Of a DNA stretch of 64,000 bases, positions 37,635-41,514 are shown piece by piece. Source of the DNA: Mucilaginibacter sp. 14171R-50 (GTDB lineage Bacteria > Bacteroidota > Bacteroidia > Sphingobacteriales > Sphingobacteriaceae); contig NZ_CP048115.1 of assembly GCF_010093045.1 (NCBI RefSeq), positions 1 to 64,000 of the forward strand, written 5' to 3'. Under the pieces are notes generated by a model, which saw only the letters and a program-made list of their open reading frames with translations, made no database searches and was not told the origin of the DNA. Every line of letters begins with the position of its first letter. Within the stretch, counting starts at the first letter, position 1. The position numbers and the translations under genes are program-made.

Positions 37635-38834
37635 CTACGCTCCGTTAACTACCGGCAGGCTGAAATGGAATTTAGTCCACTGGCTTTCCTCGCTTTCCAC
37701 CCATATTTTTCCGCCGTGGTCGTTAATGATTTTGGATGAAATGTATAGGCCCATACCCAACCCCGGGTGGGTAGATATCACATCCTGGGCACGGTAAAAC
37801 TTATCAAATATCAATTGCATAGTTTTTAGCGACATCCCTTTTCCGTAGTCTTTTATTGAAACGATAACATGCCCATCAGCATCAATGGCAGTACCCACTT
37901 CAATCTTTGTGTTTACTTGGGAGTATTTTGCGGCATTACCCAACAGGTTAGAGAACACTTGCTCCATTCTTAAAATATCAGCCGCTACGTACACATCCTT
38001 TCCTAAAACGCTCTCTAAAGTGTGATTGGGTAAAATTTGCTGCATTACCGCCAGTTGGTCTGTAACAAACCCGTTCAGGCTGATGTTGGTCATGTTGTAT
38101 TGCAAGCTGCCATTTTCAATTTTCGACAGATCGAGCAGTTGCTGCACAAGCGAATTGAGTTTTGAGGCCTGCACATCTATTTTGGTCAAAACACCTTTCA
38201 AATGCTCCGAAAGGGGTTCCTTAGTGGCTTTGGCTATTTGCGTATAGGCCTTTAATACCGTCATGGGCGTTTTCAGCTCATGGCTGGCTATAGATATAAA
38301 CTCTGTTTTCTTTTCGTCTATAAGTTTTGACCGCTTGATCTCCTCATCTTTTTCTTCAGCTATCTTTGACAAGCTAAAATTTCGGCGTTTGATCTCTTCG
38401 TAGGCGCTAATGGGTGCCTGGCCATTAAAAAACTCGCGCAGCTTGTTTATTTTTACCGGGTCGATCTTTAAAGATCGTGGCAGCCCTATCTTCATTTGTA
38501 TAGCGGTAACGCCGCTGTTTACTGTCACTTCAAATTCGGGCACCAATTTTTGGGCATAAAAAAAGCCTTCGTGAGCATCGTTAAAAGCAACATCGCTCTC
38601 AAAGGTCACCATTGCTACCAAAGCATAGCGGGTTTTATTTTGATCGAGCCCGATAGACAGTGCCCCGTTATCAGTATACTCAATTACAGTTCTCGATATT
38701 TCAGATACTGCGGTGGCAAAAGTAGTTTGCGTTGCAATGGTTAGGCCCAATTTATCTGCAACCTGCATAGATTTCTTGTGCGCCAGAACAAGGTCCATAT
38801 CGTTCTCTAACGACATACTAACTACTTCTTTCAT
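37635..38834 (-). CDS. Cytosolic histidine kinase with degenerate RsbT-like N-terminus
   Basis: A 399-residue sensor kinase without membrane segments. The N-terminal ~120 residues resemble the RsbT-type HATPase fold, but the N-box is altered (AVSEISRTVIEYTDNG). A helical linker follows, then HisKA with the phospho-acceptor His185 (SIASHELKTPMTVL), and a C-terminal HATPase with NLLGNAAKYSQ, DYGKGMS and GLGMGLYIS. It is the last gene of the rsb-like unit, with its ATG directly after the previous stop. No response regulator is seen in the window, so its output is unknown. Confidence 0.9.
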   Translation of the reverse strand: MKEVVSMSLENDMDLVLAHKKSMQVADKLGLTIATQTTFATAVSEISRTVIEYTDNGALSIGLDQNKTRYALVAMVTFESDVAFNDAHEGFFYAQKLVPEFEVTVNSGVTAIQMKIGLPRSLKIDPVKINKLREFFNGQAPISAYEEIKRRNFSLSKIAEEKDEEIKRSKLIDEKKTEFISIASHELKTPMTVLKAYTQIAKATKEPLSEHLKGVLTKIDVQASKLNSLVQQLLDLSKIENGSLQYNMTNISLNGFVTDQLAVMQQILPNHTLESVLGKDVYVAADILRMEQVFSNLLGNAAKYSQVNTKIEVGTAIDADGHVIVSIKDYGKGMSLKTMQLIFDKFYRAQDVISTHPGLGMGLYISSKIINDHGGKIWVESEESQWTKFHFSLPVVNGA

Positions 38835-39845
38835 TTATTTTACTTTTGCTATAACAACCGACATATCATCAGTTCGCCGGGCGTGGTCTTTATAAATAGC
38901 TGATGCTAAAATAGTAGGATCGTATTTGTATATCATTGGGTACCGGGCCATATCGATACGTGTTTTTATACCATCCGAACATAGCATTAAATGGTTGTAT
39001 TCATCCGCGGCGTATTGTTGGTCGTTCATAGTATTAGGGATATTATGTCCTACAATACCGTTATACGACATTTGATTTTTTAAGTTAGTGTTGTTAAAAA
39101 ATCGTGCAGCGATGTTACCAACCCCTGCCGAGGTCCACATTTTACGTTCAAGATCGTACCCCACAACACTAATAACAGCGCCCCTGGTTTTTTTGATATT
39201 GGTATGAATAAAGCGAATAGTTTCTGTAGGGCTAAAATCCGGGAATACTCTAAAGGCGTTAGCTGCTTCATTAACCGCAATATTGGCCTCGGGGCCATGG
39301 CCAAGTCCATCGGCCAGCATCAGCTTAAAATACTTTTCTGTTTTTTTAAACGCAAAGCCGTCGCCGCTGGTTTTTTCACCCGGTTTATAAACCACTATAG
39401 GCCGTATAACTACAGAAGGTTTAATACCTGTTGGGGGTTGGCGGTTATATACACGGCTTAACACTATGGTGCCCCAGCCCGGCTGAGAGTAAAGCTCAAA
39501 CGTATCTGATAACCTTTTCATACTGCCCAGCCCGTGGCCCAGAGTGTTGGTGGTTGACATGCCATCCTGCATCATCCGTGCGGGGTTTACCATCCCCGGA
39601 CCGTTATCAATACTTATAAGCTCTACATACGGCTCGCCCCCGTTGGCAAACACGCCAACAAGCAGTTCACCATCGTTGCTATATTTAAATAGATTGGAGG
39701 TCATTTCGGCCACTATCAGGTCAAGTTCATTAGTACGGGCAACGCCAATGCCTCCCTCGGTGGCCATGCGGTGTATCTCCTTTTTTATCAGCGAGAAATA
39801 ACTGCGGTCGTCCGCCGTAAAACTGATATGCGTTGCATCAACCAT
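38835..39845 (-). CDS. RsbX/RsbU-like PP2C phosphatase fused to an anti-sigma-type HATPase
   Basis: A 336-residue protein. The N-terminal ~135 residues are an RsbT/RsbW-type ATPase domain with N-box AEMTSNLFKYSNDGE, DNGPGM and the GHGLGSMKRLSD lid. The C-terminal ~190 residues are a SpoIIE-type PP2C phosphatase with LADGLGHGPEAN and MLCSDGIKTRID metal sites. PP2C proteins of this kind dephosphorylate STAS antagonists (RsbX acts on RsbR and RsbS). The start overlaps the RsbT-like stop by 8 bp. Having kinase-like and phosphatase domains in one chain is notable. Confidence 0.9.
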   Translation of the reverse strand: MVDATHISFTADDRSYFSLIKKEIHRMATEGGIGVARTNELDLIVAEMTSNLFKYSNDGELLVGVFANGGEPYVELISIDNGPGMVNPARMMQDGMSTTNTLGHGLGSMKRLSDTFELYSQPGWGTIVLSRVYNRQPPTGIKPSVVIRPIVVYKPGEKTSGDGFAFKKTEKYFKLMLADGLGHGPEANIAVNEAANAFRVFPDFSPTETIRFIHTNIKKTRGAVISVVGYDLERKMWTSAGVGNIAARFFNNTNLKNQMSYNGIVGHNIPNTMNDQQYAADEYNHLMLCSDGIKTRIDMARYPMIYKYDPTILASAIYKDHARRTDDMSVVIAKVK

Positions 39846-40251
39846 TAGCCCATTTTAATATCGTTACCACTGTACCCTCGCCCACTTTACTCTTAATATC
39901 AAACTCGTTTACAAGGCGTTTGGTACCGGGTAAGCCCAAACCCAGGCTTCGGCCGGTAGAAAAGCCATCGCGCATGGCGGCAGCTATATCCGGTATACCG
40001 GGGCCATTATCTGTAAAGGTTAAGCGCACGCCGTTATTGCGCCCGCTTGATACCACCTCAATAAGGCACGAACCGCCATCGGCATAGCGCATCATATTTC
40101 TTACAAGTTCGCTACATGCCGTTAGTAAACGGGTTTGGTTAACCAGCCCCATCTTAATTTTTACCGCGGTTTCCTTTACACGGTTCTTTAAAAAAACCAC
40201 GTCCTGTTCTTTAGATACCTGAATGGTATCTTTACTCAGCGATAAGGTCAT
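39838..40251 (-). CDS. rsbT: RsbT-like serine/threonine kinase (anti-sigma-type HATPase)
   Basis: A 137-residue single-domain GHKL ATPase. The N-box ELVRNMMRYADGG (about 48-60), DNGPGIPD and GLGLPGTKRL nucleotide-binding motifs are intact. RsbT phosphorylates RsbS and RsbR in stressosome-type modules and, when released, activates a downstream partner. It overlaps rsbS-like by 20 bp and the RsbX-like gene by 8 bp, indicating tight coupling. The symbol is by homology and gene order. Confidence 0.9.
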   Translation of the reverse strand: MTLSLSKDTIQVSKEQDVVFLKNRVKETAVKIKMGLVNQTRLLTACSELVRNMMRYADGGSCLIEVVSSGRNNGVRLTFTDNGPGIPDIAAAMRDGFSTGRSLGLGLPGTKRLVNEFDIKSKVGEGTVVTILKWANG

Positions 40252-40642
40252 CGGTGGTTTGATCTTCGTCTGCGTCGTCCTCCTGATCTCCTACCATGGA
40301 TTTTAACAGTTTCATGCCTCTTTCCATATCCAGCGCAGTGTGTACGCCTTTAAGCGGCAAACCCAGCTCAATTAATGTAATTGCAACGGCCGGCTGCATG
40401 CCAACCACCACGGTTTGGGCATCCAGTATTTTAGACATACTGGCGATGTTGCCAATTATCCGCCCCATAAATGAATCGACTATCGAAACAGCGGAAATAT
40501 CAATTAAAACCCCTTTTGCGCTTGTTTTGTTAACCATTTGTACCAGGTCGGCCTCCAGGTTCAGGGCAAGCCTGTCGTAAAGATCAACCTGTATGGTAAC
40601 CAGCAAAAAGGCTCCCATCCTTAGAATAGGAATTTTATCCAT
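40232..40642 (-). CDS. rsbS: RsbS-like STAS domain protein
   Basis: A 136-residue single STAS domain. The core is GVLIDISAVSIVDSFMG, in which Ser57 of the V-D-S-F motif is the likely phosphorylation site by comparison with RsbS. TVVVGMQPAVAITLIELGL follows, a very typical RsbS stretch. The C-terminal ~25 residues are acidic and extra. RsbS is the scaffold antagonist that holds RsbT in stressosomes. It lies 11 bp after the RsbR-like gene. Confidence 0.9.
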   Translation of the reverse strand: MDKIPILRMGAFLLVTIQVDLYDRLALNLEADLVQMVNKTSAKGVLIDISAVSIVDSFMGRIIGNIASMSKILDAQTVVVGMQPAVAITLIELGLPLKGVHTALDMERGMKLLKSMVGDQEDDADEDQTTDDLIAE

Positions 40643-40653
40643 TACTTAATCTA

Positions 40654-41514
40654 TTATATTTTTGATACTGTATTAAGCCTTTTAACCTCTAATCTCATCG
40701 CTTTAAAAGAATAGGCCAGCGCGCTGGCTAAGGTAGCCTTGGTGATTATGTTAGAAAGATCGATACCCAAATGCACCACCGTTTGTGCAATTTCGGGGCG
40801 TATTCCGCTAATTATACACTCGGCACCCATCAGGCGTGTGGCGCTTACGGTTTTTATAAGATGCTGCGCTACCAGTGAATCTACAGCAGGTACACCCGAT
40901 ATATCCAGAATGGCGATACTGGAACCCGACTCTACAATTTCCTGTAAAAGGTTCTCCATTACTATCTGTGTGCGCGCGCTATCAAGCGTGCCGATAATAG
41001 GCAGGGCCAGTATACCATCCCATACCCTGATAACCGGTGTAGATATCTCGGTTATCTCATCAGTTTGGCGCAGTATTACTTCTTCGCGTCCTTTAATAAA
41101 TGTTTCAAAGGTAACCACGCTCAGGCTATCCATCAGGCGGTTTATCTTCTGGCTTTCTGCAAAAAGCGCCCTCGGGTCGTCTACCTCATTCTGTAACACT
41201 TCCAGGATAGCCTCTTTCAGCAAGAAAACAAAATTACCCGTTTCGCGCGGACTAAAGCCCTGACGTGCACGTGTAATGGCTATACCACCTAATATTTCAA
41301 TTACCGGATTCCACTCGTCAGATTCGAGGTTGGTAAGGTTACTTCCGGACAGGTTACCCACCAGCGCGTCAATTAACTCTTCCGATTGATTTCTCAATTC
41401 GTCGTTGCTGATCAGGTCTTCACGCAAACCCTCGTCGGTCAACTGGTTTTTCATCCAAAGTTCAAGGATGTTCTTTTTTTTATTTTGTAGCAATTGATAA
41501 GTATTTTGTGACAT
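40654..41514 (-). CDS. rsbR: RsbR-like stressosome sensor (N-terminal sensor plus STAS)
   Basis: A 286-residue protein. Residues 1 to ~145 form a helical RsbRD-type N-terminal domain (NKKKNILELWMKNQL, ETGNFVFLLKEAILEVL). Residues ~160-275 form a STAS domain with ILDISGVPAVDSLVAQHL and IISGIRPEIAQTVVHLGIDL. Ser213, Ser236 and Thr245 are candidate sites for the RsbT kinase. It is the first gene of the five-gene unit. The N-terminal domain has no haem or flavin signature I can identify, so the signal is unknown. Confidence 0.9.
   Translation of the reverse strand: MSQNTYQLLQNKKKNILELWMKNQLTDEGLREDLISNDELRNQSEELIDALVGNLSGSNLTNLESDEWNPVIEILGGIAITRARQGFSPRETGNFVFLLKEAILEVLQNEVDDPRALFAESQKINRLMDSLSVVTFETFIKGREEVILRQTDEITEISTPVIRVWDGILALPIIGTLDSARTQIVMENLLQEIVESGSSIAILDISGVPAVDSLVAQHLIKTVSATRLMGAECIISGIRPEIAQTVVHLGIDLSNIITKATLASALAYSFKAMRLEVKRLNTVSKI

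Follow-up and report, generated by a model that had tools for sequence, protein, structure and literature searches.

A five-gene RsbRSTX-type operon of Mucilaginibacter with RsbT-like domains on its phosphatase and histidine kinase

Introduction

How stressosomes signal in bacteria without SigB is a question still open in print (PMC9237108). It is raised by an operon of Mucilaginibacter sp. 14171R-50 that ends in the gene of a cytosolic histidine kinase (K). The stretch analysed, called the window below, comprises positions 1 to 64,000 of contig NZ_CP048115.1 (64,000 nt), and the operon was located by ORF reading:

37635–41514, minus strand, five-gene operon rsbR-rsbS-rsbT-rsbX-like-K

In known stressosomes, the core retains RsbT until stress, when RsbT phosphorylates RsbR and RsbS and leaves; RsbX resets the core (PMC9237108, PMC6614362). 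RsbT is reported to activate RsbU by making its linker rigid, and kinases coupled via the RsbU_N domain have been described (PMC12143880). In the Mucilaginibacter operon, profile comparisons indicate that both the phosphatase (X) and the kinase begin with an RsbT-like domain, which is intact in X and degenerate in K.

Results

The operon and its relatives

The genes are tightly packed, with a gap of 11 bp between R and S, overlaps of 20 bp (S/T) and 8 bp (T/X), and 0 bp between X and K. This is exactly the minus strand arrangement given in a first-pass annotation of the window (gaps of 0–11 bp or overlaps of 8–20 bp), and its claim that three of the five proteins contain RsbT-type folds is borne out by sequence for T and for the N-termini of X and K. 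The host genome is a single contig of 4.54 Mb. A Bacteroidota promoter pattern occurred at three sites in the window against 2.7 expected, none of them near the operon.

A scan of the species collection gave 523 RsbR relatives, of which the best 80 loci were kept, and 8 loci were added from whole genomes. The five-gene order, which the first-pass annotation had proposed to search for, is conserved as a unit, at a frequency that chance could not nearly produce: all five genes are present in order in 87 of the 88 loci, the exception being L096, which has broken frames (in L090, counted within the 87, K is cut at a contig end). The counts below leave out L096, L090 and five duplicate loci, and refer to 81 unique relatives, or 82 modules with that of the window. 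Selection by RsbR similarity means that the loci all belong to one broad clade and cannot be counted as independent. Among named relatives in the species collection, Mucilaginibacter rigui matched best (94% identity in RsbR), in a listing from which the record of the genome itself may be missing. Three loci with uncertain K starts (L065, L068 and L095) were excluded from the K references, and the alignments, made without L033 and thinned by identity, had 35 rows (A1, short K only), 50 rows (A2) and 38 rows (A3).

Within the genus the module is patchy, the N-terminal domain of K being found in 39 of 149 genomes, or 33 of 117 good ones (E ≤ 1e-20). In some Mucilaginibacter genomes the complete five-gene module occurs twice (L041 and L043, L048 and L052, L029 and L031).

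The N-terminus of the histidine kinase

The kinase gene and its parts are as follows:

37635–38834, minus strand, K, histidine kinase (ORF, Pfam)
38460..38834, minus strand, K residues 1–125, degenerate RsbT-like domain, ATP motifs lost and lid deleted (hhalign, AlphaFold2)
38055..38342, minus strand, K residues 165–260, HisKA dimerisation and phospho-acceptor domain, with His185 at 38280–38282 (Pfam)
37638..37988, minus strand, K residues 283–399, catalytic HATPase_c domain (Pfam)

The kinase half is conventional. Pfam detects HisKA (60 bits) and HATPase_c (91 bits), the latter being the fourth GHKL domain of the operon, and His185 and the G1 and G2 patterns are invariant (82/82). Among the relatives there are two types of K, of about 400 aa (56 of 81) and about 545 aa (25 of 81), which differ in their kinase halves and share a common N-terminus; a PAS domain was found in both of the two long proteins scanned.

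The N-terminus of the window K matched no Pfam family at E ≤ 0.1, and among 50 K N-termini there were two matches to HATPase_c_2 and one to HATPase_c. In profile-profile comparison with hhalign it matched RsbT with a probability of 96.6 (E 5e-10, 106 columns), against 0.2 for four controls (the R N-terminus, S, PP2C and the HATPase_c domain of K itself); the match to the N-terminus of X was weak (32.7). On this comparison, residues ~1–120 of K are identified as a degenerate RsbT domain with dead ATP motifs.

The pattern of retained residues is uneven. The helical half of the domain is kept, with two helices and the Glu (81/82) and Arg (82/82) of the N-box. The N-box Asn, counted by aligned column and not by a loose text pattern (43/82), is present in only nine of the 82 proteins, each of them one of the 25 long forms; the D-x-G-x-G pattern occurs in two and the G2 pattern in three of 82. 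Ten columns, including the start Met, are invariant in 50 sequences with identities to that of the window down to 31%. An AlphaFold2 model of this region (block pLDDT 81–94) shows the same order of strands and helices as the N-terminal domain of X minus the lid.

When 395 genomes of the phylum were searched with the K N-terminal profile (E ≤ 1e-3), 20 places were found: eight K-type kinases (that of the window genome included), nine RsbT proteins, one RsbT-kinase fusion and two small RsbT-like proteins. The classical RsbT-binding domain RsbU_N (PF08673) was not found in K, and the 14 Pfam families to which the 50 K N-termini gave matches do not include it; the scan does detect it on other kinases of the phylum.

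The phosphatase

The phosphatase gene lies directly upstream of K:

38835–39845, minus strand, X, rsbX-like, N-terminal ATPase plus PP2C (ORF, Pfam)
39447..39845, minus strand, X residues 1–133, RsbT-like ATPase domain with ATP motifs intact (Pfam, hhalign, motifs)
38838..39398, minus strand, X residues 150–336, C-terminal RsbX-type PP2C phosphatase domain (sequence and fold matches)

Pfam detects HATPase_c_2 (34 bits) and SpoIIE/PP2C (27 bits) in X. Its N-terminus matched RsbT by hhalign with a probability of 99.5 (E 4e-23), its ATP motif patterns are present in all 82 modules, and SpoIIAB was among the fold matches of the structure model. By sequence, the PP2C domain is closest to 3zt9 (entitled 'The bacterial stressosome...', E 6.6e-17), followed by RsbX 3w40 (E 3.5e-5), and the same two entries headed the fold search. 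Five acidic residues of this domain (D162, D179, D291, D326 and D327) are invariant (82/82). X is not a single-domain RsbX: an RsbT-like ATPase domain has been added in front of its RsbX-type phosphatase.

That ATPase motifs and PP2C acidic residues are alike invariant in X would also be consistent with a bifunctional kinase-phosphatase, whose RsbT-like domain would serve as another switch kinase for RsbS or RsbR, with the PP2C of the same chain working against it. We consider this doubtful. RsbT is encoded next to X in all 82 modules, and the second ATPase appears dispensable in other modules of the phylum, because X is a single PP2C domain in 16 of 33 further loci.

The RsbR-RsbS-RsbT core

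The three upstream genes, and the putative phosphorylation sites of RsbR and RsbS, are:

40654..41514, minus strand, R, rsbR-like, 286 aa, RsbRD_N sensor domain plus STAS (Pfam, solved-chain matches)
40978..40980, minus strand, RsbR Ser179 codon (by alignment, equivalent to position 175 in RsbR chain 7b0u)
40876..40878, minus strand, RsbR Ser213 codon (by alignment, equivalent to position 209 in RsbR chain 7b0u)
40232..40642, minus strand, S, rsbS-like, 136 aa, one STAS domain (match to solved RsbS chain 6qcm)
40472..40474, minus strand, RsbS Ser57 codon (by alignment, equivalent to position 56 in RsbS chain 6qcm)
39838..40251, minus strand, T, rsbT-like switch kinase, 137 aa, GHKL motifs intact (Pfam, motif patterns)

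R gave Pfam matches to RsbRD_N (101 bits) and STAS (55 bits), and aligned with the solved RsbR chain 7b0u over nearly its full length (residues 8–268, E 1.9e-31); its second half matched chain B of 7o0i (residues 128–280, E 1.3e-34). S matched STAS (28 bits) and the solved RsbS chain 6qcm (residues 4–118, E 1.9e-32). We take 7b0u and 6qcm to be Listeria proteins, and their numbering fits the sites published for that genus. These are RsbS S56 and RsbR T175 and T209 (PMC6614362). By alignment they correspond to RsbS Ser57, RsbR Ser179 and RsbR Ser213, each of which is invariant in the 82 modules, so that both RsbR sites are Ser, not Thr, throughout. In entry 9o4r the residue aligned with RsbS Ser57 is Ala. 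An early candidate for a phosphorylation site, RsbR Thr245, was wrong, as the alignment places the sites at Ser179 and Ser213.

T matched HATPase_c (54 bits) and HATPase_c_2 (32 bits) and is a stand-alone GHKL kinase with intact N, G1 and G2 boxes; its D-x-G-x-G and G2 patterns were found in 82/82. On sequence comparison, the assignment of R, S, T and X to the RsbRSTX kind of stressosome is firm. The first-pass annotation had allowed that the STAS and ATPase proteins might belong to unrelated sigma-regulator families; R and S instead match solved RsbR and RsbS, and the PP2C domain of X matches 3zt9 and RsbX. By analogy with the known families, the Mucilaginibacter proteins would assemble into a core that is phosphorylated at these sites. 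No SigB cascade (RsbU, RsbV, RsbW or a SigB-type sigma factor) was seen among the ORFs at 34–45.5 kb or, by eye, among the neighbours of 12 relatives.

RsbT-kinase fusions and other couplings in the phylum

Apparent intermediates between RsbT and the N-terminus of K exist. RsbT-histidine kinase fusions with intact N-box, G1 and G2 are found in three other genomes (L182, L284 and L285), each encoded in one operon with R, S, T and an X of the ATPase-PP2C form and downstream of them; L182 has an additional kinase gene between X and the fusion. Because these intact fusions exist, and some long K proteins keep the N-box Asn that the short K of the window has lost, the series suggests that a still active RsbT was first joined to a kinase and that ATP binding was lost later. 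The fusion of L182 is also part of a large phosphorelay cluster 3′ of RSTX (L182:5687-12322), comprising, one after the other, a REC-REC-kinase, the RsbT-kinase fusion, a single-domain regulator, a double-REC protein and another REC-REC-kinase.

The 33 further loci of the phylum (most of them picked by RsbT-type matches, the set at E ≤ 1e-16 without G583:C148) show how the two fusions are distributed. An ATPase-PP2C X is present in ten, two of which (L174 and L175) seem to duplicate L035 and L053, and in every one of the ten the operon also encodes a kinase that begins with an RsbT-like domain. In 16 loci X consists of the PP2C domain alone, in six no PP2C of this type was seen 3′ of T, and in L187 there was no RsbT above threshold. 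Among the 16 single-PP2C loci, L292 alone seems to have an RsbT-like kinase N-terminus, which is degenerate (by eye, a 9-bit match). A strict rule that fusion of X goes with fusion of K is broken by this locus.

Twelve single-PP2C modules were scanned for RsbU_N, by way of which RsbT activates RsbU, on the downstream protein (L184, L291, L296 and L300 lay outside these 12). It was found in nine (L181, L183, L186, L189, L288, L290, L294, L295 and L298), eight of them above the curated cut-off, with L189 just below it (25.0 versus 25.5), and was not found on the protein scanned in L289, L292 and L299. Since nine of 12 carry RsbU_N at that operon position, RsbU_N kinases and RsbT-like kinases appear to replace one another after X. 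These RsbU_N-kinase operons resemble that of Mucilaginibacter in having stressosome genes upstream, a kinase after X and a two-component output. They differ in having RsbU_N in place of the RsbT-like domain, a single-domain X and kinases of the HisKA_3 type, and in eight of the nine the next gene encodes a HTH-type regulator of two-domain size, ~210–250 aa (NarL type by eye in L183 and L186).

The exchange bears on the main rival explanation, i.e., that RsbT is a messenger as in Bacillus, and that released RsbT pairs with the N-terminal domain of K as a GHKL heterodimer and so switches the kinase on or off. Dimers are typical of SpoIIAB/RsbW-type GHKL proteins, and in other modules of the phylum a kinase at this operon position carries the classical RsbT-binding domain. 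RsbU_N kinases in rsbT operons have also been described (PMC9237108, PMC12143880). The domain of K, however, resembles RsbT itself position for position, and not an RsbT-binding domain, and the intact fusions have the motifs of a working RsbT, which would more naturally compete with RsbT than receive it. We therefore regard the messenger role as unlikely, though it deserves more weight than any other alternative, and prefer docking of K on the core.

Further arrangements were observed in the phylum. Stand-alone degenerate RsbT-like proteins of 133–137 aa are encoded in two other genomes (L187:6828-7229 and L184:5719-6132); that of L187 lies directly 5′ of receiver-domain genes, and that of L184 matches the K profile only (22 bits). 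These small proteins might be decoys or docking adaptors for kinases. In L299 (4275-7466), X is followed by a SpoIIE-HATPase protein and then by a second RsbR-like STAS protein, with no kinase there.

The response regulator

No response regulator lies beside the operon in the stretch read around it, as the first-pass annotation had stated. The statement does not hold for many relatives: a single-domain response regulator directly follows K (same strand, within 300 bp; the furthest, in L080, at 232 bp) in 33 of 81, i.e., 22 of 25 with long K and 11 of 56 with short K. The latter figure includes L039, added by reading because its ORF start overlaps K (automatic count 10/56). The chance of an adjacent regulator is about 0.3% per locus, a hand estimate based on the 4.535 Mb genome with its 71 receiver domains and on equal density elsewhere.

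A profile of seven linked Mucilaginibacter regulators was used to search the window genome. The top match (930790–931140) scored 193.6 bits and the next 93.1; it lies within the following gene:

930778–931179 (L202:5279-5680), orphan single-domain response regulator, receiver domain only, containing MDNWIPDAGG (profile match)

No kinase was seen by eye among its neighbours within ~5 kb. This orphan is probably the regulator of K in the window genome, and the output of the module, which the first-pass annotation had left open while proposing a search for a regulator linked elsewhere, is to that extent narrowed. It is not specific to the module: the gene belongs to the genus core, and since it is carried by 139 of 149 genomes, of which 39 have the K domain, further partners must exist for it. 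The module may thus plug into a core regulator that other kinases use too.

Eight genomes with a linked copy, placed by coordinates, have two or three such regulators each. In a regulator tree (FastTree, roughly rooted) the 13 linked Mucilaginibacter copies do not form one group. Ten of them fall in one clade (support 0.72). L204 and L036, which represent the same genome sampled twice (other such pairs occur in the set), are placed outside it, and L039 groups within the core clade beside L228, a copy that is itself linked to K in G551. The regulators beside the module in L055, L060, L061, L063, L067, L073 and L080 group among other regulators of the genome, so linkage of regulator and module arose more than once.

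Adjacency of the regulator to K also bears on whether the real output could be a sigma-type or STAS partner switch elsewhere in the genome, with K a side branch. Candidates for such a switch exist, namely a REC-PP2C/STAS cluster at ~3443.5–3446 kb, an RsbW-like protein at 1098 kb and a 412-aa PP2C protein at 1050 kb. These genes are unlinked to the module, however, and the REC-PP2C protein has a receiver input of its own. Three region-3 sigma factors were found in the genome (frames of 285–290 aa), none near the module, and with the regulator directly after K in 33 of 81 relatives, a distant output is very improbable. The cluster (C1 ~3443.5–3446.0 kb, L151:955-2979) is a second partner-switching cluster of the genome, in which the REC-PP2C and STAS genes are followed by one for an ATPase-like protein (by eye) and the gene ends overlap.

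Discussion

Proposed mechanism

The simplest account of the RsbT-like domains on X and K is that they are users of the RsbT docking sites. On balance we favour, with modest confidence, an RsbRSTX stressosome with a two-component output, in which X and K dock on the STAS core through these domains. RsbR and RsbS would form the core, and when stress is sensed RsbT would phosphorylate RsbS at Ser57 and RsbR at Ser179 and Ser213; the PP2C domain of X would remove the phosphates and reset the core. The RsbT-like domains of X (intact) and K (degenerate) would dock on the STAS surfaces used by RsbT, and because they would share these sites, phosphorylation of RsbS would re-partition RsbT, X and K, changing which of them is bound. 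Binding or release would alter the dimeric K through its helical linker, and K would autophosphorylate at His185 and pass the phosphate to a single-domain response regulator. We infer the binding of the K and X N-termini to RsbS or RsbR, the sign of the switch and the identity of the recipient regulator.

Several results weigh against this proposal or the domain assignment beneath it. RsbT matches the ordinary HATPase_c domain of K better (probability 98.2) than the K N-terminus, because all are GHKL domains, and in the window genome the K profile (E ≤ 1e-3) finds K alone and not the neighbouring RsbT. A search of solved structures with the K N-terminal profile gave no match at E ≤ 1. The 50 matches listed in each fold search with the K model were all kinase proteins, and because kinase domains filled the lists these searches say nothing on the N-terminal domain. 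About 13 residues are missing from that domain, the ATP lid among them, and a STAS partner might not be held without these. In L292 the X and K fusions do not go together, 48 of the 81 loci have no regulator directly after K on the same strand, and the orphan regulator is genus-core (139/149 genomes, 114/117 good ones, E ≤ 1e-38).

More tentatively, the operon may represent a class of stressosome in which the output enzymes are themselves partner-switched on the core. Their RsbT domains would have been gained by fusion, and that of the kinase would have died as an enzyme to become a pure docking module, replacing the link between RsbT and RsbU_N. The stressosome would in this way have turned into a scaffold with direct control over a two-component kinase.

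Relation to known systems

The Bacillus and Listeria stressosomes share with the Mucilaginibacter module RsbR, RsbS, RsbT, an RsbX-type phosphatase and the positions of the phosphorylation sites. They have Thr at the RsbR sites, where Mucilaginibacter has Ser at both, and signal through RsbU-RsbV-RsbW-SigB, none of which was seen around the Mucilaginibacter operon, where the output is a histidine kinase. The stressosome of Moorella thermoacetica (genes MtR, MtS, MtT and MtX) is the source of 3zt9, the closest entry to the PP2C domain of X by sequence and fold. Its output is likewise another signalling enzyme and not a sigma factor (PMC4976288), i.e., an RsbU_N-GGDEF cyclase (PMC12143880), in contrast to a kinase with an RsbT-like domain.

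The first-pass annotation had singled out a module ending in a kinase as worth a look. RSTX modules, Bacteroidetes included, and RSTX modules with HisKA/REC outputs (Dogia, Ruegeria) have been published (PMC9237108), and it is the degenerate RsbT domain at the front of K that is unusual. A close parallel is the RsbRSTX-D1/D2 locus of Vibrio vulnificus, in which rsbR-S-T-X is followed by a two-component kinase, with no downstream RsbU, no SigB and no RsbU_N detected on the kinase (PMC9237108, PMC10014275). There the sensor is a heme globin, whereas the sensor of Mucilaginibacter R is RsbRD_N. The phosphatase of the globin-sensor clusters is a single-domain PP2C (PMC9237108), without the extra RsbT-like ATPase domain of the Mucilaginibacter X, and VvD1 has a PAS domain, whereas K has none in this species and carries a degenerate RsbT domain. 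In the open-access literature, none of the matches listed described, as far as their extracts go, a histidine kinase bearing an RsbT-like domain. What is new here is the RsbT-like domain on both kinase and phosphatase, i.e., the way in which both would attach to an RsbRSTX module.

RsbU_N is present on some of the proteins downstream of published modules and absent from the majority, for which RsbT-dependent phosphorylation has been proposed (Heinz et al. 2022, PMC9237108). Applied to Mucilaginibacter, this proposal would have K controlled by RsbT-dependent Ser/Thr phosphorylation, suggested to be transient for VvD1, with the RsbT-like N-terminus as a relic. In keeping with it, VvRsbT and VvD1 gave no positive interaction, and phosphorylation of the sensor kinase through RsbT was put forward on the Vibrio side (PMC9237108). 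The N-terminus of K is nevertheless conserved across two kinase types, where a relic would be expected to decay further, and we judge this explanation improbable. Under the docking proposal, hidden RsbT-like domains may explain published downstream kinases without RsbU_N; should VvD1 and kinases like it carry one unnoticed, the failure to see RsbT interact with the kinase would be accounted for.

A kinase fronted by a degenerate RsbT domain offers a concrete alternative to the published couplings, in which the kinase would dock on the core with RsbS or RsbR as its predicted partner. The series from RsbT, through the intact RsbT-kinase fusion, to a dead RsbT domain looks like that of an enzyme turned into an interaction domain, and suggests that stress-sensing complexes could drive ordinary two-component signalling without a sigma factor.

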